Part shown: positions 18,732-41,586 of the stretch, piece after piece | Layout: every line of letters starts with the position of its first letter | How positions within the stretch are numbered: the first letter of the stretch is position 1 | Assembly (NCBI GenBank): GCA_030830565.1 | Contig: JAURMR010000035.1 | Coordinates: 1 to 64,000 of the forward strand | Reading direction: 5' to 3' | Length of the DNA stretch: 64,000 bases | Source: Acidimicrobiales bacterium | Lineage (GTDB): Bacteria > Actinomycetota > Acidimicrobiia > Acidimicrobiales > Acidimicrobilacustridaceae | Notes under the pieces: generated by a model | Told to the model about the DNA's origin: nothing | The model's input: only the letters and a program-made list of their open reading frames with translations | Database searches by the model: none | Made by a program: the position numbers and the translations under genes

Positions 18732-19027
18732 GCGTCTGAGTCCTCTTCATCTGCGGTTTCGGCGCTCTCGGCAGCAACAGGTTCGCCAACTCTCGATGCG
18801 ATGGCGCGCCGAGCAATCTTGACTTCAACACCTGGAGCGACCTGCAACAAGACCGTTGCGTCACTGATCTCGACCAACGTCCCGTAGATACCAGAACCAG
18901 TCATGACTTCGTCGCCGATTGCGAGGCTCTCGACAAAAGATGCGTGTCGCTTGACTTCCCGTTGCTTCGGGAGGATCAACACGACCCAAGCGATAACGAA
19001 CAGAACGATGATGATGAGAAATGACAT
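18728..19027 (-). CDS. yajC: Preprotein translocase accessory subunit YajC
   Basis: 99 residues from the ATG of MSFLIIIVLFV; a TTG-started extension of 11 residues lacks family similarity. One transmembrane helix at the N-terminus, then LPKQREVKRHASFVESL and the YajC core GDEVMTGSGIYGTLVEI. The C-terminus is acidic (EEDSDA). It is part of the SecDF-YajC complex and first gene of the operon. Confidence 0.93.
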   Translation of the reverse strand: MSFLIIIVLFVIAWVVLILPKQREVKRHASFVESLAIGDEVMTGSGIYGTLVEISDATVLLQVAPGVEVKIARRAIASRVGEPVAAESAETADEEDSDA

Positions 19028-33518: not shown

Positions 33519-33538
33519 AATTTCTCCTACGGCCGTAG
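33519..33538 (+). promoter_or_regulatory. Suf operator site 1, upstream of sufC1
   Basis: AATTTCTCCTACGGCCGTAG. The last 12 bases, CTACGGCCGTAG, are a perfect palindrome. The element lies about 20 bases upstream of the -10 box of sufC1, over the -35 region. It matches sites before sufD and sufB at 15 of 20 positions. Confidence 0.6.
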
Positions 33539-33558
33539 TGCGAATCCCTGGCAGGTCC

Positions 33559-33564
33559 TAGACT
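33559..33564 (+). promoter_or_regulatory. -10 box (TAGACT) of sufC1-sufS-sufU
   Basis: TAGACT, six-base spacer (GCAGGC), then the sufC1 ATG; leaderless type. Confidence 0.55.
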
Positions 33565-33570
33565 GCAGGC

Positions 33571-34320
33571 ATGTCCCCCCTCTTCAGCATCGAGGATCTT
33601 CACGTTTCAACCGCCGGTGAAAATCCTGTCGAGATCCTGCGCGGCGTCAACCTTGTCATTGGCGCCGGCGAGGTCCATGCCCTCATGGGGCCCAACGGTT
33701 CCGGCAAGTCAACCCTCGCCTCGGCACTTCTCGGCAGCCCTGAATACCAGGTCACCTCTGGTCGCATCCTCTTCAAAGGCGATGAGGTCACTGAGTGGCC
33801 GACCGATGTTCGTGCCAAAGCCGGCATGTTCCTTGCCTTCCAGTACCCGCAGGAGATTCAGGGCGTTTCCGTTCTCAACTTCCTGCGTCAGGCATGGTCG
33901 GCTCGACGCGGCATCGATCTCTCGATGCTCGAGCTTCGACTTGAGATCATGGACTGGATGACGCGTCTCGATATGGACCCGTCTTTCGCCGATCGCTACC
34001 TCAACGAAGGCTTCTCCGGTGGCGAAAAAAAGCGCAATGAAATTCTGCAGATGGCGATCCTGCAGCCCGATATCGCGATCCTCGACGAAACCGACTCCGG
34101 CCTCGACATTGACGCACTCCGAATTGTGGCCAAGGGGGTGCGCGAGGTTCTTGCTGCCCGACCCGAACTCGGAATCCTCGCCATTACGCATTACCAGCGT
34201 CTGCTCGACGAACTGAATCCTTCGTTCGTCCACGTCCTGATTAACGGACGCATTGTGGAGTCCGGGGGTCCTGAGCTTTCCCGCAAGCTCGAAGCTGAGG
34301 GATACGACGCATGGCTGTAG
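33571..34320 (+). CDS. sufC: Fe-S cluster assembly ATPase SufC, copy 1
   Basis: 249 residues, ABC ATPase of the SufBCD scaffold. Walker A GPNGSGKST near residue 38, Q-loop FQYPQEIQGVSVLNFLRQ, signature FSGGEKKRNEIL near 150, Walker B IAILDETDSGLDIDAL near 170, and H-loop ITHYQ. All motifs are intact. It is the first gene of sufC1-sufS-sufU; its end overlaps sufS by ten bases. A second complete SufC is encoded at 36383-37171, so the partner of this copy is uncertain. Confidence 0.95.
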   Translation: MSPLFSIEDLHVSTAGENPVEILRGVNLVIGAGEVHALMGPNGSGKSTLASALLGSPEYQVTSGRILFKGDEVTEWPTDVRAKAGMFLAFQYPQEIQGVSVLNFLRQAWSARRGIDLSMLELRLEIMDWMTRLDMDPSFADRYLNEGFSGGEKKRNEILQMAILQPDIAILDETDSGLDIDALRIVAKGVREVLAARPELGILAITHYQRLLDELNPSFVHVLINGRIVESGGPELSRKLEAEGYDAWL

Positions 34321-35558
34321 CCGCCGACCCCATTGATGGAACTCGTCTGAAAGAGCAGTTCCCGCTGCTTTCGCGAGATGTTCACGGCAAGAAGATCGTC
34401 TACCTCGACTCCGCAGCAACCTCACAGAAACCTCTTGCGGTTTTAGATGCGATGGACGACTACTACCGCACGATTAATTCCAATGTGCACCGCGGCGTTT
34501 ACATGATCGCCGAAGAAGCCACGAACCGAATGGAAATTGCTCGGGCCCTTGTTCGCGATTTCATCGGCGCTCGCTCGTCGTCAGAGATCATCTTCACGAA
34601 GAACGCCACCGAGTCGCTCAACCTGGTTGCACAAAGCTGGGGTCGAGCAAACCTCGTTGCAGGCGATGTCGTCGTGCTCAGCCACATGGAACATCACGCC
34701 AACATCGTTCCGTGGCACATGCTCGTCGCCGAGATCGGCATTGAGTTGCGTTGGATTCCTCTCGACAGTGAAGGTCGCCTCGATCTCACGAACCTCGACA
34801 CACTGCTCGAAGGCGCCAAGGTTCTCTCAGTCACCGCAATGTCGAACGTGCTCGGCACAATGAATCCCGTTCGGACACTCACCGATGCGGCTCGCAAAGC
34901 CGGGGCAATCAGCATTATCGACGGTTGCCAGTCAGTCCCCCATAGCGCCACGAATGTGCAAGAAATTGGCGCCGACTTCCTTGCGTTCTCAGGCCACAAG
35001 ATGTGCGGCCCGACCGGCGTCGGCGTTCTCTACGGGCGCGAAGAACTTCTCGAAGCGATGCCTCCATTCCTTGGTGGCGGCGAAATGATTCGCGACGTTC
35101 GCCTCGACGGGTTCACCACCAACGACCTTCCTTGGAAATTCGAAGCTGGCACCCCAGCGATTGCCGAAGTCATTGGCCTCGGTGCTGCAGTGGAATGGCT
35201 CAATGGCGTTGGCATGGACAAAGTTCGTGCCCACGAACTCGCTCTTACCGAGTACACAATCTCGACGCTTCATGAACGCTTCGGCGATCGCATCAACATT
35301 CATGGACCTTCGAGCCCCCTCGAACGTGGCGGCGTCTTCAGTTTCGATTTCGACGGCCTGCACCCGCATGACATTTCCCAGGTCCTTGATCAGCACGCGG
35401 TCTGCGTTCGCGCCGGACACCACTGCGCCAAGCCTCTGATGAAACTGCTTGGCATTGGCGCAACGGCCCGCGCCTCGGTCTACGTCTACAACGACACCGC
35501 CGATATCGATGCCCTCGCCGATGCACTTGATGCAACTGGCGCGTTCTTCACCCTCTAG
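34311..35558 (+). CDS. sufS: Cysteine desulfurase SufS
   Basis: 415 residues. Group II PLP-dependent desulfurase: NATESLNLVAQSW, HMEHHANIVPW, PLP lysine 230 in FSGHKMCGPTG, and the persulfide cysteine in CVRAGHHCAKPLM near residue 370. It supplies sulfur from cysteine to SufU. The ATG lies inside the end of sufC1 (ten-base overlap), giving coupled translation. Confidence 0.97.
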   Translation: MAVAADPIDGTRLKEQFPLLSRDVHGKKIVYLDSAATSQKPLAVLDAMDDYYRTINSNVHRGVYMIAEEATNRMEIARALVRDFIGARSSSEIIFTKNATESLNLVAQSWGRANLVAGDVVVLSHMEHHANIVPWHMLVAEIGIELRWIPLDSEGRLDLTNLDTLLEGAKVLSVTAMSNVLGTMNPVRTLTDAARKAGAISIIDGCQSVPHSATNVQEIGADFLAFSGHKMCGPTGVGVLYGREELLEAMPPFLGGGEMIRDVRLDGFTTNDLPWKFEAGTPAIAEVIGLGAAVEWLNGVGMDKVRAHELALTEYTISTLHERFGDRINIHGPSSPLERGGVFSFDFDGLHPHDISQVLDQHAVCVRAGHHCAKPLMKLLGIGATARASVYVYNDTADIDALADALDATGAFFTL

Positions 35559-35601
35559 TCCCCTACGCTCATTCAAACACCACGCACAGGGAGTGCCGCC
35601 G

Positions 35602-36075
35602 ATGCCCGGCCTCGAAGACCTCTACCGAGAGATCATCCTCGATCACTACCGCAACCCGCGTAACCGCGGCGAGCTCGAAACACCGCCGGCGCATCGCGTC
35701 GAAGGGTTCAATCCACTGTGTGGCGATGAAATCGTGCTGTATCTCGACCTCGATGCCGATGGTCGTGTGGCGGATATCCGCATTTCCGGTCAGGGCTGTT
35801 CAATCAGCCAGTCATCAGCCTCGATGATGTCCGCCGCCGTAAAGGGCAAGACTGTTGCGGAAATTGACGATCTCACACGCGCCTTCAAAGCAATGATGTC
35901 GATTCACGAAAATTCACTTGAAGGCGCCGAGACGACTGAGCCAATCGAATCACCTGATGTGAAGCTCGGCGATCTCGAAGCACTTCGCGGTGTTGTGAAG
36001 TTCCCGGTTCGCATCAAGTGCGCAACACTCGCCTGGAACACGCTCGCTCAAGGCATCGAAGAAGCCTCAGCCTGA
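35602..36075 (+). CDS. sufU: Fe-S assembly protein SufU
   Basis: 157 residues from the ATG preceded by AGGGAG. IscU-like fold of the SufU type: LYREIILDHYRNPRNRGE at the N-terminus, NPLCGDEIVLYLDLD with the first Cys, GQGCSISQSSASMM with the second, and IKCATLAWNTL with the third; the zinc-binding Asp is in CGDE. SufU accepts the sulfane from SufS in Gram-positive bacteria. Last gene of the unit; it converges with the PCD gene 15 bases away. Confidence 0.96.
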   Translation: MPGLEDLYREIILDHYRNPRNRGELETPPAHRVEGFNPLCGDEIVLYLDLDADGRVADIRISGQGCSISQSSASMMSAAVKGKTVAEIDDLTRAFKAMMSIHENSLEGAETTEPIESPDVKLGDLEALRGVVKFPVRIKCATLAWNTLAQGIEEASA

Positions 36076-36089
36076 GCAGTTTGTAGGCC

Positions 36090-36386
36090 TCAGCCTCGAA
36101 CAACTCCATCGATACCCTTCGCCAAAGCGAAGCAACGCTCGGTGGGGCCCCCACTGTCGTGACTGGTGATGTCGATCACCACGCTGTTCCAAACATTCGA
36201 CCAGTTCGGATGATGATCGAGCCGCTCAGCAATCGGAGCAACACGATTCATGAACGCCCAGGCTTCGGTGAAATTCGCGTAGGTGAGTTCGCGATGCAAA
36301 TGACCGTCGACCATCTCCCATTCCGGGATGGTCGCCAAACGTTCGGCAACTTCCTCCGGAGTCAGAAGCCGATCGCGAGGACTCAT
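36090..36386 (-). CDS. Pterin-4a-carbinolamine dehydratase
   Basis: 98 residues. PCD/DCoH fold: LTPEEVAERLATIPEWEM at the N-terminus, HLHRELTYANFTEAWAFMNRVA, LDHHPNWSNVWNSV with the catalytic His pair, and ITSHDSGG with the third His. It recycles 4a-hydroxytetrahydropterin or, in bacteria lacking aromatic hydroxylases, may act in molybdopterin or other pterin metabolism. The ATG overlaps the sufC2 stop (ATGA), tying it to the suf transcript. Confidence 0.92.
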   Translation of the reverse strand: MSPRDRLLTPEEVAERLATIPEWEMVDGHLHRELTYANFTEAWAFMNRVAPIAERLDHHPNWSNVWNSVVIDITSHDSGGPTERCFALAKGIDGVVRG

Positions 36387-37171
36387 GCGAACGGATCGGC
36401 AAAGGGGTCAGCGAACGGATCGGCAGCAGGGGCCGGCGCTTCTTCTTCAACCCATTCGGCATAGCCGGTGCGCTCAAGTTCATCGGCGAGTTCGGGCCCA
36501 CCCGAGGAAACGATTCGACCCTGCGCAAGCACATGAACAACATCGGGCTTCAACTCTTCAAGGAGTCGCGAGTAGTGCGTGATCGCCAGCACGCCGAGAT
36601 CGAACTCGGTCGTAGCCGCTTCGACCCGACGCGAACAGGCACGAAGTGCGTCGACATCGAGACCCGAGTCGAGCTCATCGAGAATCGCAAACTTGGGACG
36701 CAATACGGCGAGTTGCATCGTTTCATTCCGCTTCTTTTCGCCACCAGAGAGATCGACGTTTACGGGACGATCAAGGAGGCGAGTCGCCAATCCAATGCGC
36801 TCGGCTTCGGCAGCAACGGCGGTATGAACGACTGAAGCGTCGCGACCCTGCGCCGAAAGCGCTTCGGTGAGCAGTTCCTCGAGGCTGACGCCAGGCACCT
36901 CTACCGGATACTGCATTGCAAGGAAGAGACCAGCCTTTGCACGTTCATAGGTAGGAAGTGCGAGGAGATCAACGCCGTCGATCATCACTGATCCGCCCGT
37001 GACCGTGTAACCGGGCTTTCCCATGAGGACATGAGAGAGCGTCGACTTACCGGCGCCATTGGGACCCATCACGGCATGAACCTCGCCGGACTTCACGACG
37101 AGATCGACGCCATTGAGAATCTGTCGACCCGCAACCGCAGCAGTGAGACCTTGAATTCGAAGTTCACCCAT
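36383..37171 (-). CDS. sufC: Fe-S cluster assembly ATPase SufC, copy 2
   Basis: 262 residues from MGELRIQGL; an apparent longer reading overlaps the Rieske and sufD genes. Walker A GPNGAGKSTLSHVL, Q-loop MQYPVEVPGVSLEELL, signature LSGGEKKRNETM, Walker B FAILDELDSGLDVDAL, H-loop ITHYS: all complete. The C-terminus carries an extra acidic tail with three DPFA repeats. It follows sufD and the Rieske gene, the classical sufD-sufC order, so it is the likelier SufBD partner. Confidence 0.94.
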   Translation of the reverse strand: MGELRIQGLTAAVAGRQILNGVDLVVKSGEVHAVMGPNGAGKSTLSHVLMGKPGYTVTGGSVMIDGVDLLALPTYERAKAGLFLAMQYPVEVPGVSLEELLTEALSAQGRDASVVHTAVAAEAERIGLATRLLDRPVNVDLSGGEKKRNETMQLAVLRPKFAILDELDSGLDVDALRACSRRVEAATTEFDLGVLAITHYSRLLEELKPDVVHVLAQGRIVSSGGPELADELERTGYAEWVEEEAPAPAADPFADPFADPFA

Positions 37172-37172
37172 A

Positions 37173-37487
37173 TCAGTCGATCTCCACGTAAACAGCAGCG
37201 TCGTCGATGCGGACGACATAGGTCGGAACAGCTTTAGTCGCCGGAAGCGAATTCGGAACACCGGTTTCAAGCGAGAAGCAGCTGCCGTGCTTCGGACATT
37301 CGAGTTCACATGTTCCGGCGAGCAATTCACCCTCAGAAAGCGAAACGTCTTGATGCGAGCAGCGATCGCCAATTGCGTAGAACGCATCGCCGATATGAGC
37401 AACGGCGAGACGAACTGAACCGAGATCGAAGCTTCGGACTTCTCCGTCGGGAACGTCGTGAATGGAGCAAACACGCTCGAGTGTCAT
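37173..37487 (-). CDS. Rieske-type [2Fe-2S] ferredoxin, Suf-associated
   Basis: 104 residues. The Rieske motif is CSHQDVSLSEG followed by CPKHGSCFSLETG, giving two Cys and two His ligands. It resembles the NirD/biphenyl-ferredoxin-like Rieske proteins inserted between sufD and sufC in actinobacteria. Probably supplies electrons for cluster assembly or serves as a client. The start overlaps the sufD stop. Confidence 0.9.
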   Translation of the reverse strand: MTLERVCSIHDVPDGEVRSFDLGSVRLAVAHIGDAFYAIGDRCSHQDVSLSEGELLAGTCELECPKHGSCFSLETGVPNSLPATKAVPTYVVRIDDAAVYVEID

Positions 37488-38719
37488 CAGTTGACTCCTG
37501 CATCGAGTCGTTCGTCGATTGCTGCCGCAATCAACGGCACCGCAGCCGCGACGGGGAACTCTTCAAGTACTTCGTCGAAGAAGCCGGCGACAATCAGGCG
37601 TTCGGCAATTTCGGTCGGCACGCCTCGACTTTCGAGGTAGAACACTTGCTCTTCATCCACCGGACCAACGGTTGAAGCGTGACTGCACTTCACATCGTTG
37701 GTTTCGATTTCGAGATTGGGCACTGACTCCGCCCACGCAGTATCAGAAAGTTTGAGGTTGCGATTGGTCTGGAAAGCGTTGGTTCCCCGTGCTTCCTTTT
37801 CAACCCGGATGAGGCCGGTATAGACCGAGCGCGAATGGCCCCCAACAGCGCCCTTGAACAAGAGGTTCGAATTGGTGTCAGGAGCGTCGTGCTTCTGGAA
37901 GGTGCGGAAATCAAGTGTTTGAGAATCGTGACCGAAATACACGGCACTGAGGTTGCCGGTTGCCCCGCGACCGACAAGACGACAGTCGGTGCGCATACGG
38001 CCATAGTCACAACCAAGACCTGCATGCGACGAGGTCAACGTTCCATCGTTACGAACACGGCTCACCTGTGAGGCGATCTGCCACACCCGCGGGCCACGCA
38101 ACTGCACGTTGCCGTAGGACAGACGACCAGCACGATCAACATCAAGTTCAACCAGCGGCGCAATAAAGGCGGCAACATCGGTCGAACCGTGCCAATCGAG
38201 AACACGAACGTCGGCATCGGCACCAACACGCACAACCAGCCGTGGGTACACCGCTGCGCCTTCGATATCGATCCAGTCGATAATCGCGACCGGCGCATCG
38301 ACCGTGACACCAGCAGGCACATGCACGAGCACCCCATCGAGGAAGTTCGCGTCGTTCAATCGGCCGAAAACATCGGGACCACCATCGGCAACAACCCCGA
38401 GCGCAGACTCAGCATCAGGACCATCGACAATCGATCCGACATAAACGCCCTTGGCGGCGAGTGCGTCGTCGACTCGAGAGGCAACTACCGCACCGTTGCG
38501 AACAACCACGGCACCAGCTAGGTGGCCAAGCGACTCAAGGAGAGTGGCCGCTTCAGCCGGAACTCCCTCGGAACGGTCAGAGACGACCGTCCAATCGGTC
38601 AACTGAAGATCGGCAACGCGGCTATAACGCCACACCTCTTCATCGGTAGAGGGCATGACGAATTCGCCCGTCTGGGCGGCCGCGGAACGTCGATCAACAA
38701 GCCATTGGGGGGAAGACAC
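37487..38719 (-). CDS. sufD: Fe-S cluster assembly protein SufD
   Basis: 410 residues from GTG; TAGGAT lies seven bases upstream. SufB/D beta-helix domain: GVLVHVPAGVTVDAP, QLRGPRVWQIASQVSRV, FKGAVGGHSRSVYTGLIRVEK, AFQTNRNLKLSDTAWAESVPNLEIE, and CSHASTVGPVDEEQVFYLESRG near the end. Part of the SufBC2D scaffold. A suf operator overlaps its -10 box, so sufD-Rieske-sufC2-PCD can be transcribed separately from sufB. Confidence 0.95.
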   Translation of the reverse strand: MSSPQWLVDRRSAAAQTGEFVMPSTDEEVWRYSRVADLQLTDWTVVSDRSEGVPAEAATLLESLGHLAGAVVVRNGAVVASRVDDALAAKGVYVGSIVDGPDAESALGVVADGGPDVFGRLNDANFLDGVLVHVPAGVTVDAPVAIIDWIDIEGAAVYPRLVVRVGADADVRVLDWHGSTDVAAFIAPLVELDVDRAGRLSYGNVQLRGPRVWQIASQVSRVRNDGTLTSSHAGLGCDYGRMRTDCRLVGRGATGNLSAVYFGHDSQTLDFRTFQKHDAPDTNSNLLFKGAVGGHSRSVYTGLIRVEKEARGTNAFQTNRNLKLSDTAWAESVPNLEIETNDVKCSHASTVGPVDEEQVFYLESRGVPTEIAERLIVAGFFDEVLEEFPVAAAVPLIAAAIDERLDAGVN

Positions 38720-38726
38720 GGGAATA

Positions 38727-38732
38727 ATCCTA
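38727..38732 (-). promoter_or_regulatory. -10 box (TAGGAT) of sufD
   Basis: TAGGAT on the minus strand, seven-base spacer (TATTCCC), then GTG. Its TAG is the end of the operator core. Confidence 0.5.
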
Positions 38733-38749
38733 CCCGCATAGGAGAAATT
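38730..38749 (-). promoter_or_regulatory. Suf operator site 2, upstream of sufD
   Basis: On the minus strand AATTTCTCCTATGCGGGTAG. Core CTATGCGGGTAG is an imperfect palindrome. It overlaps the -10 box of sufD. Confidence 0.6.
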
Positions 38750-38758
38750 ACGGCCACT

Positions 38759-39103
38759 CTACGAGCGACGGAATTTCCTCTTCAGACGACCCATCCGACT
38801 GTTGGCCTTCCTCTGCTCGGCTTCGATCTCAGCGAGGATCTGCGGACCCACCGCATTCACGATGTCTTCCGCTTCGTCGAGCAGTTCAGCAATCCCCTCG
38901 GCCTCCGGTTCTGGCGGGGGCGGCGGCGCGATCAACGACCCATGCGTCCAGTCGACATCCACCAGCCGGAGTTCAAACTTCGGGCAATTGTCCGGACAAC
39001 GCCAAGGGGCCTCGGGAGCGAGGTCAAGGTTGCACTTGCGCACCGTTTCGCCGTTGGCATAGCTACGACTTTCGTACTGCTTGCATTCCTCACGCATAGG
39101 CAT
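38759..39103 (-). CDS. Cysteine-containing small protein in the suf locus, unknown
   Basis: 114 residues. Four cysteines at 7, 24, 36 and 40 within the first 40 residues, the last two as CPDNC, suggest a metal or cluster site. A Pro-rich hinge (APPPPPEPEAEG) follows, then an acidic helix (ELLDEAEDIVNAVG) and a basic C-terminus (MGRLKRKFRR). No family recognised. It lies between the EamA gene and sufD on the same strand; the sufD operator follows its stop codon. Confidence 0.65.
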   Translation of the reverse strand: MPMREECKQYESRSYANGETVRKCNLDLAPEAPWRCPDNCPKFELRLVDVDWTHGSLIAPPPPPEPEAEGIAELLDEAEDIVNAVGPQILAEIEAEQRKANSRMGRLKRKFRRS

Positions 39104-39126
39104 GTCGACAGTGTTTCATTTCGGGA

Positions 39127-40002
39127 TCACGAATCCAACGCGAGGCCGAGATCAGGCTTTCGTGAAAGTCGCCAGCGAGCGGCAGAAACAACCGCAGTGG
39201 CCCCCAGTGCCGCTGCCATAACGGTGCACACAAGACTCACAAACGTCACAGAATCGTTGAGCAGAAGGACGCCACCGATTGCAGTGAACAGAGCATTGAT
39301 TTGAGAACTCGCAGCAACAGCAGTGACACCGGCCGCAGGGAGAGCTGCGGTTCGCAACACACGTCCGATTGTGCCGAACAGGGCAACCGCGATTGCTGCG
39401 CCCAGCGCACCCCAAATCGTCCACGGCTGTTGCAGGGTCCCAAATGCGAGACCCATTGGAAGGAGGATGATGCTTCCGCTGATCATCGTCGAGGACACGA
39501 TCGTTGTTGGATTCAGGCCGTCTTCAACTGCAATTTCCGAAGTGCGCAGTCCGATCACTTCGATAGCGACGAACGCGACAGCAATTGCCGCGCCCGCCCA
39601 TGTCACGGTGTCGACGCCGCCTCCCCCGGCGGCGACCGTGAGTCCGATGATGGCCGCTAGGGACGAACCCAACGCTGCAAGCGTCGAGAATCGGCCGGCT
39701 CGATCGCGAACTAAGAGCGCAACTGCTGGCGTGCATGCCAGCGCAAGGCCAGCAAGAGGCCCATCAAGCGTTCGAAACATCGTTCCTGCAGCTACAAGGC
39801 CAACAACCTGAATACCAACTGCAATTCGACCAGAGCGAACGCGAAGAGGCTCTCGCCACGACCCCGCATGCTGTCGACGCGAAATGAGCACCGCGACGAT
39901 GGCTCCCATCGCAACGCGAAACCCAACAATGCCAATTGCGGGGCCACTTCCATAGCGCCACGCAATGTTGCAACCAGCAAACAGGACCGACGAGATGAGC
40001 AC
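39127..40002 (-). CDS. EamA/DMT-family transporter
   Basis: About 291 residues from a GTG chosen because it gives the usual ten-helix length; a longer reading overlaps sufB and adds a non-hydrophobic head. No ribosome site is evident. Repeated hydrophobic segments with two EamA halves: VLISSVLFAGCNIAWRYGSG near the N-terminus and ASSQINALFTAIGGVLLLND near the end. Drug/metabolite-type exporter, substrate unknown. It sits between sufB and sufD, so it may ride on the sufB transcript. Confidence 0.78.
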   Translation of the reverse strand: MLISSVLFAGCNIAWRYGSGPAIGIVGFRVAMGAIVAVLISRRQHAGSWREPLRVRSGRIAVGIQVVGLVAAGTMFRTLDGPLAGLALACTPAVALLVRDRAGRFSTLAALGSSLAAIIGLTVAAGGGGVDTVTWAGAAIAVAFVAIEVIGLRTSEIAVEDGLNPTTIVSSTMISGSIILLPMGLAFGTLQQPWTIWGALGAAIAVALFGTIGRVLRTAALPAAGVTAVAASSQINALFTAIGGVLLLNDSVTFVSLVCTVMAAALGATAVVSAARWRLSRKPDLGLALDS

Positions 40003-40081
40003 GTCGGCAACAGCGCGATGTTCGCGCCGGTTTACGAGTTGATTCTCATTCGTGTCGATGACTGAGCGTACGACGGCTGAA

Positions 40082-41485
40082 TCAGCCGACCGAACCTTCC
40101 ATCTGCAATTCGATGAGACGGCTCCACTCCACCGCGTATTCCATCGGCAAGGTGCGCGTGATCGGCTCGATGAAGCCATTCACAACCATGCCCATGGCCT
40201 GTTCAGAGGAAAGTCCACGACTCATCAGATAGAAGAGTTGTTCGTCAGCAACCTTTGAAACAGTTGCTTCGTGACCGATAACAGCATCACCCGAGCCAAC
40301 TTCCATGTACGGGAAAGTGTCGGAGATTGATTCGTCATCAAGGATGAGCGCGTCGCACTGCACGTGGCTCTTGCAGCCGTAGGCATCGTCCTCGACACGA
40401 ATCAGACCGCGATAGGAGGTGCGACCGCCATCTTTCGAAATCGACTTCGAGACGATCTTCGAGGTGGTCTCGGGTGCGGCGTGAACCATCTTTGAACCGG
40501 TGTCTTGATGCTGACCAGGGCCGGCATAGGCAACAGAAAGAACTTCGCCAGACGCCTTCGGACCAACCAGCCAAACCGCTGGGTACTTCATGGTGAGACG
40601 GGAACCAATGTTTCCGTCGATCCATTCCATATGGCCTTCGGCTTCGACTCGCGCACGCTTGGTGACGAGATTGAACACGTTGTTCGACCAGTTCTGAATG
40701 GTCGTGTAGGTGACGCGAGCGCTTGGCTTCACAATGATTTCGACAACTGCCGAATGCAATGAGTCGGAGGTGTACACCGGGGCAGAACAACCTTCGATGT
40801 AGTGAACCTGGCTGCCTTCGTCAGCGATGATCAACGTGCGTTCAAACTGACCCATGTTCTCCGCGTTGATGCGGAAGTAGGCCTGAAGCGGCATTTCGAC
40901 CGAAACACCAGGCGGCACGTAAATGAACGATCCACCCGACCACACTGCAGAGTTCAGTGCGGAGAACTTGTTGTCATTCGGTGGGATCACCGTTCCGAAA
41001 TAGGCGCGCACGATTTCAGGGTGTTCACGAAGTGCGGTGTCCATGTCGGTGAAGATGACGCCTTGGGCTTCAAGATCTTCACGGTTCTTGTGGTAGACGA
41101 CTTCGGATTCGTACTGCGCAGTAACGCCGGCAAGGTACTTACGTTCGGCCTCGGGAATACCGAGCTTCTCATAGGTTTCCTTCACCGAATCGGGAAGTTC
41201 GTCCCACGCATCGACCTGATGATCGGTCGGCTTGATGTAATAGAAAATGTCGTCGAAGAAAATCTCGGACATGTCTCCGCCCCAATTCGGCATTGGGCGC
41301 TTGAGGAAGTGGGCGTAGGACTTGAGACGGAAGTTCCGCATCCAGTCAGGCTCGCCCTTCATCCACGACATCTCTTTGATGATGTTTTCGTCGAGGCCAC
41401 GCTTTGGCTTGAAGACGTAATCCTCAGCATCGCTCCAGCCGAGTTTGTAGCGGCCGAGGTCAAGATCGAGTTCGGTGCTGGCCAT
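40082..41485 (-). CDS. sufB: Fe-S cluster assembly protein SufB
   Basis: 467 residues. Scaffold protein: [21 protein letters not shown] at the N-terminus, [68 protein letters not shown] with the conserved Cys, [26 protein letters not shown], and [26 protein letters not shown] lies about eight bases before the ATG, and a suf operator with a TACTAT box is 29-50 bases upstream. Confidence 0.97.
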
Positions 41486-41513
41486 GACGATGCTCCGGGA
41501 GGCTGGGCGGGGG

Positions 41514-41533
41514 AATTTCTCCTATGGCGATAG
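41514..41533 (+). promoter_or_regulatory. Suf operator site 3, upstream of sufB
   Basis: Read on plus, AATTTCTCCTATGGCGATAG. Core CTATGGCGATAG is an imperfect palindrome. sufB is on the minus strand, so the element is inverted relative to sites 1 and 2; it overlaps the TACTAT box and predicted start of transcription. Confidence 0.6.
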
Positions 41534-41535
41534 TA
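41530..41535 (-). promoter_or_regulatory. -10 box (TACTAT) of sufB
   Basis: TACTAT on the minus strand overlapping the operator edge, about 44 bases upstream of the ATG. sufB, unlike sufC1 and sufD, has a leader with a Shine-Dalgarno site. Confidence 0.4.
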
Positions 41536-41586
41536 ACAAATACCCCCGTCGGATCCACTCCTTGGGCCGGAATTCTCTGGACGTCG

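Follow-up and report, generated by a model that had tools for sequence, protein, structure and literature searches.

Repression of suf genes by SufR-type regulators is known from both cyanobacteria and actinobacteria. SufR of Synechocystis represses sufBCDS and its own gene, and combines an N-terminal DNA-binding domain with C-terminal cysteines, according to the accessible part of the report (PMC8593673). The SufR proteins of Streptomyces avermitilis, M. tuberculosis (Rv1460) and Corynebacterium glutamicum are described as actinobacterial suf repressors in the accessible sections of two further reports (PMC6034842, PMC11995493). Rv1460 has three cysteine ligands spaced as C203-X12-C216-X27-C244, as given in the same sections (PMC6034842). 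Outside this family, RisR of Myxococcus xanthus, an Rrf2-family protein, is presented in the available part of its report as a repressor in its Fe-S holo form, acting on two assembly operons through shared operators (PMC9973013). IscR, another Rrf2-family protein, exerts feedback control of Fe-S assembly, as far as the partly accessible source describes it.

The locus analysed here lies in a 64-kb stretch of DNA (64,000 nt; hereafter, the window) on contig C29 of an Acidimicrobiales genome (G000; 2.0 Mb, 71% complete). Curated families identified the genes of its three units, each scoring over the cut-off of its family. The plus strand carries sufC1, encoding the Fe-S assembly ATPase SufC (33571..34320; TIGR01978), sufS, encoding a cysteine desulfurase (34311..35558; TIGR01979), and sufU, encoding a sulfur transfer protein (35602..36075; TIGR01994). 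On the minus strand lie sufD (37487..38719; TIGR01981), a Rieske-type [2Fe-2S] ferredoxin gene (37173..37487; PF00355) and sufC2, encoding a second SufC ATPase (36383..37171; TIGR01978), and also sufB (40082..41485; TIGR01980). The region 33571–38719 thus holds two sufC paralogues, one with sufS-sufU and the other with sufD and the Rieske gene; at a guess, they may serve separate SufB/SufD complexes.

The first-pass annotation of the window had proposed a shared 20-base operator ahead of sufC1, sufD and sufB. The three sites were found again at the same coordinates and in the same orientations, with an exact 13-mer, AATTTCTCCTAYG, at 33519–33531 (+), 38737–38749 (−) and 41514–41526 (+). A comparison by eye reproduced the 15 identical columns of 20, and the sufC1-site palindrome CTACGGCCGTAG is indeed perfect. 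The conserved unit reaches beyond these 20-mers: it is a 26-bp palindrome, ATT-N4-CTAY-N4-RTAG-N4-AAT, of which each 20-mer covers the core and a single arm. Operator 1, ahead of sufC1-sufS-sufU (33520..33545, +), matches this palindrome without mismatch. Operator 2, ahead of sufD-Rieske-sufC2 (38723..38748, −), has one mismatch in the outer AAT, and its centre lies about 17 nt ahead of the sufD GTG start. Operator 3, ahead of sufB (41515..41540, −), has one mismatch in the outer ATT. In an alignment over genes and genomes (202 rows, made up of distinct sites plus the reverse complement of each), the palindrome was often flanked by GG and CC.

Against the suspicion that such a motif might occur at random frequency, counts were well above chance and control levels genome-wide. 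The window contains three copies of the core CTAY-N4-RTAG, each at a suf promoter, versus 0.19 expected, and none of 100 shuffles of the window reached three. Within G000, TTCTCCTAYNNNNRTAG was restricted to the three suf places (reversed control, 0); in 41 genomes (G000 and 40 relatives), it gave 89 matches versus 5 for the reversed control in hand-summed counts. The full palindrome with at most one mismatch was present in 39 of the 41 genomes, at 123 places versus 7 for the reversed control (also hand-summed). A scan of the whole of G000 identified four sites above noise, namely three exact ones at suf and one with a single mismatch at mrp/sufR. When three mismatches were allowed, matches in G000 were noise (half-motif, 45 vs. 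73 in the control; palindrome, 75 vs. 76). An additional one-mismatch palindrome at C35:86293-86318 was considered as a fifth operator and rejected as a chance match, because it did not recur among the relatives' matches listed.

The fourth site lies outside the window (G000:C42:9328-9353; one mismatch), between mrp/apbC and a divergently oriented gene for a SufR-like regulator of 239 residues (G000:C42:9360-10076), and its sequence ATTTCTCCTACGGCGCTAGGTAGAAT ends 6 nt upstream of the sufR GTG start. A site between these two genes was recurrent in relatives. The gene divergent from sufR encodes an Mrp/ApbC protein (PF10609 and PF01883), and a class-V aminotransferase gene downstream of sufR (PF00266) can be read as a cysteine desulfurase. 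The same organisation is visible in locus L032 (1160–4249), where mrp/apbC (FeS_assembly_P and P-loop) is divergent from sufR and followed by an IscS/NifS-like aminotransferase gene. In two loci from outside the class (L149, L150), an Mrp-type motif likewise lies on the opposite strand next to the SufR homologue. A regulator-gene search of the genome at E ≤ 0.001 gave a single SufR-like match, on C42, and Rrf2 proteins were found on C35 and C27, consistent with the earlier observation that the window contains neither a SufR nor an Rrf2 gene.

Several features of the regulator point to the SufR family. A winged helix was recognised over the cut-off (PF12840, HTH_20) in a protein of a relative (G018) that is 95% identical to the G000 regulator. 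The cysteines of the latter follow the pattern C-X12-C-X33-C, and the three C-terminal cysteines were kept in all 40 aligned regulators as C-X12/13-C-X32/33-C, with a first spacing of 12 in 36 and 13 in 4, and a second spacing of 32 in 32 and 33 in 8. This pattern is close to that of Rv1460, as described in the accessible part of its report, with C-X12 in common and a second spacing of X32/33 rather than X27. Matches to the curated family SufR_cyano (TIGR02702) at E ≤ 0.01 were obtained for 37 of the 40 aligned regulators; scores of 29.5 bits (G000) and 32 bits (G018) were far below the cut-off of 178.8. A genome search with this family gave no match in G000; the same search matched 12 of 14 control genomes, only one of them over the cut-off. 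A Foldseek search with the regulator model (mean pLDDT 69) returned ArsR-type folds and unrelated TRAPP/BcsD matches, none below E 1e-3, and gave no information on the cysteine domain; a PDB sequence search with the regulator gave no match. For Rrf2 (PF02082), the G018 protein scored 12.9 bits, below the cut-off of 30.

Thus, like Synechocystis SufR, the regulator combines a DNA-binding N-terminus with C-terminal cysteines, and its sites predict suf targets and its own promoter. In contrast to cyanobacterial SufR, its gene adjoins mrp and a desulfurase-like gene rather than suf; and whereas Rv1460 heads its own suf operon, sufR here is apart from suf, with four dispersed operators. The DNA differs as well: the operator is CAAC-N6-GTTG for cyanobacterial SufR, CAAC-N6-GTTG for S. 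avermitilis and, by prediction, GAAC-N6-GTTG for C. glutamicum, and it is another sequence here. The known SufR box was sought as an alternative operator and is absent from the suf promoters: exact copies of CAAC-N6-GTTG in the window lie at 18845, 30063, 54622 and 55657, none of them at a suf promoter, and the copy with one mismatch nearest to a suf start lies inside sufC1 (33648). With up to one mismatch, this box occurs 61 times in the window versus 31 expected, a number that no shuffle reached, and the copies are spread throughout. The first-pass annotation was therefore right that the DNA does not resemble a cyanobacterial SufR box; the candidate regulator is nevertheless SufR-like, and this name was chosen because of the differing box and the missed curated score.

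Presence of the regulator gene tracked that of the operator among relatives. The two genomes without the palindrome, G028 (which has one strict half-motif match) and G040, have only remote best SufR homologues (E 3e-16 and 2e-9). Among G021–G040, all 17 genomes with SufR at E < 1e-60 have the palindrome, whereas of the other three, only G021 has it (72% complete; two matches; no close SufR). Across the class, at least 186 of 247 genomes surveyed have a SufR-like match. In 100 class genomes, the core was found ahead of sufB in 38 of 40 with a close SufR, 26 of 34 with a match at E 1e-60 to 1e-30, 4 of 9 with a weak match and 2 of 17 without SufR, i.e., with no SufR among the matches listed. The core is thus present in 64 of the 74 genomes with a SufR-like protein at E < 1e-30, and base shuffling of the sufB regions gave 1.6 per 100. 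The difference between genomes with SufR at E < 1e-30 and those lacking it gave a Fisher p of 6e-9, a value that ignores phylogeny. The 100 sufB regions were chosen by hand and omitted most genomes of the order with a known strict sufB site, so any bias in the rate for SufR-carrying genomes should be downward. The 17 genomes without SufR span seven families, and two of the 100 regions (L214, L231) are cut by contig ends. Exceptions occurred in both directions, namely G216 (89% complete), with a good site ahead of sufB and no SufR, and G026 and G210, with a close SufR and no core ahead of sufB.

The motif was also kept ahead of suf genes in both close and distant relatives. Of 53 strict sites (one per locus and genome, limited to those yielding a locus in the first-listed genomes), 52 lie within approximately 350 nt ahead of sufB, sufC1, sufD or mrp/sufR. 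The nearest genes were sufB (23), sufC1 (14), sufD (3) and mrp or sufR (13) in a test whose Mrp query began 11 codons upstream of its ATG. For the odd site, L063, the only nearby match is Mrp-like with 33% identity, and the mrp assignment is doubtful. The motif ahead of sufB in other families is close to GGGATTGTTACTATNNNNGTAGTGGAAATCCC. Because the motif was used to select the strict sufB and sufC1 alignment sets, left-arm conservation in them is inflated; a relaxed set was fairer, although also core-picked. The strict motif was detected in 61 of 247 class genomes, with hand-made counts of 36 of 71 in the order of the window (6 in the control) and 25 of 176 outside it (approximately 22 in the control), the latter rate being near the control level. 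Therefore, the exact TTCTCC arm is mainly a feature of the order, and the class as a whole shares the CTAY-N4-RTAG core with ATT/AAT. Of 83 sufR loci, among which some genomes are represented twice, 53 have the exact core at the sufR promoter and 30 lack it, including G000 and G019 with a one-base variant, indicating that sufR autoregulation is not universal.

A search of 18 loci that carry SufR homologues from outside the class (L133–L147, L149–L151) gave no CTAY-N4-RTAG, nor did the core occur where sufR and sufB are divergent in one lineage outside the class. Four of these loci (L136, L138, L139, L140) come from a lineage elsewhere in the phylum; in them, a SufR homologue with 32%–33% identity appears to be divergent from a sufB-like gene, the latter recognised by a short motif only, and CTAY-N4-RTAG is missing. 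Separately, sufR genes of the present kind occur in MAG records titled Bifidobacterium breve (L158, L159, L204), titles that look wrong.

These results strongly support the earlier proposal that one regulator controls the split locus, because a fourth operator lies at a regulator gene whose presence tracks that of the operator. We consider it highly probable that the four sites are operators of a single autoregulated, homodimeric SufR-like repressor. Such a regulon would resemble that described for RisR in that one regulator shares operators among Fe-S assembly units; RisR, however, is an Rrf2 protein with the core GAC-N7-GTC. A candidate for the co-occurring regulator recommended for search was found, and it is SufR-like rather than of the Rrf2/IscR type. 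An Rrf2/IscR-type Fe-S regulator encoded elsewhere in the genome could instead bind the sites, with sufR merely one target. Two Rrf2 proteins of G000 do exceed the Pfam cut-off, and one of them (L085; G000:C35:168819-169211) has a cysteine-bearing GACDHEGQC stretch. Fe-S-sensing Rrf2 proteins can carry such a stretch, and this protein is a possible second Fe-S sensor of G000. However, no site with up to two mismatches lies near either Rrf2 gene, whereas one lies at sufR, and where a close SufR homologue is absent, the operator is mostly absent too. Control by IscR or another member of this different protein family is therefore improbable.

The position of the sites relative to promoters bears on two other explanations. 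TAGAAT ends 6 nt ahead of the sufR GTG, TAGGAT lies ahead of the sufD GTG, TACTAT lies inside the sufB operator, where TTACTAT looks like a −10 element on the sufB strand, and the right arm of the sufC1 site is at approximately −35 distance from TAGACT. These hexamers were recognised by eye; a consensus scan found no sigma-70 promoter in the region (2.4 expected), and the overlap with promoters accordingly rests on inspection and analogy. Such overlap, including the start of sufR so soon after TAGAAT, could indicate that the motif is itself a core-promoter element of an alternative sigma factor. However, the motif is palindromic, occurs in either orientation with respect to the gene, at distances of approximately 17 to 100 nt from the start codon, and is missing ahead of sufB in 15 of the 17 examined genomes that have sufB and lack SufR, so that a sigma-factor element is highly improbable. 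For sufR, sufD and perhaps sufC1, we infer a start codon near the transcript start, i.e., leaderless transcripts. Because each unit has an inverted repeat close to its start, the palindrome might alternatively form an RNA hairpin in 5′ leaders, but it ends just ahead of the start codons of sufR and sufD and, with the promoters placed as above, would not be transcribed whole there, leaving this explanation barely credible.

Under control by the SufR-like repressor, the regulator would hold an Fe-S cluster on its three C-terminal cysteines when clusters are plentiful. The loaded form would bind ATT-N4-CTAY-N4-RTAG-N4-AAT, covering the −10 or −35 element of each promoter. As the palindrome lies over or beside promoter-like hexamers, the simplest mechanism would be a dimer that excludes RNA polymerase from the promoter, and the bound dimer would block the polymerase at sufC1SU, sufD-Rieske-sufC2, sufB and mrp/sufR-desulfurase. 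From the divergent mrp/sufR operator, sufR would be autoregulated. Upon cluster loss through iron limitation or oxidative or nitrosative stress, the regulator would be released and the four units would rise together. Repression by the cluster-loaded form and release upon cluster loss are predicted by analogy with SufR as portrayed in the accessible part of its report (PMC8593673). Cluster dependence should not be assumed, because M. tuberculosis SufR cysteine variants still repressed in a reporter test, according to the available text (PMC6034842).

SufR-type control of suf is already known; the new element, as read from the sequence, is an operator that differs from the published SufR box. 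A literature search for Acidimicrobi and SufR, covering titles and the beginnings of abstracts with few subscription papers, found no report on the two together and, among the records listed in wider searches, no description of this operator. Acidimicrobiia seem somewhat more likely than otherwise to possess a distinct SufR-like Fe-S sensor subfamily with its own DNA code, ancestral to the class, which would tie together a dispersed regulon of sufBCDSU, the Rieske ferredoxin, mrp/apbC cluster delivery and sulfur supply, with operator arms doubling as −10 elements. The findings suggest that the SufR box changed while the circuit stayed. For an entire class that is mostly uncultured, they provide a concrete candidate regulator together with an operator and a list of targets, as well as a handle for reading Fe-S stress in its transcriptome data.
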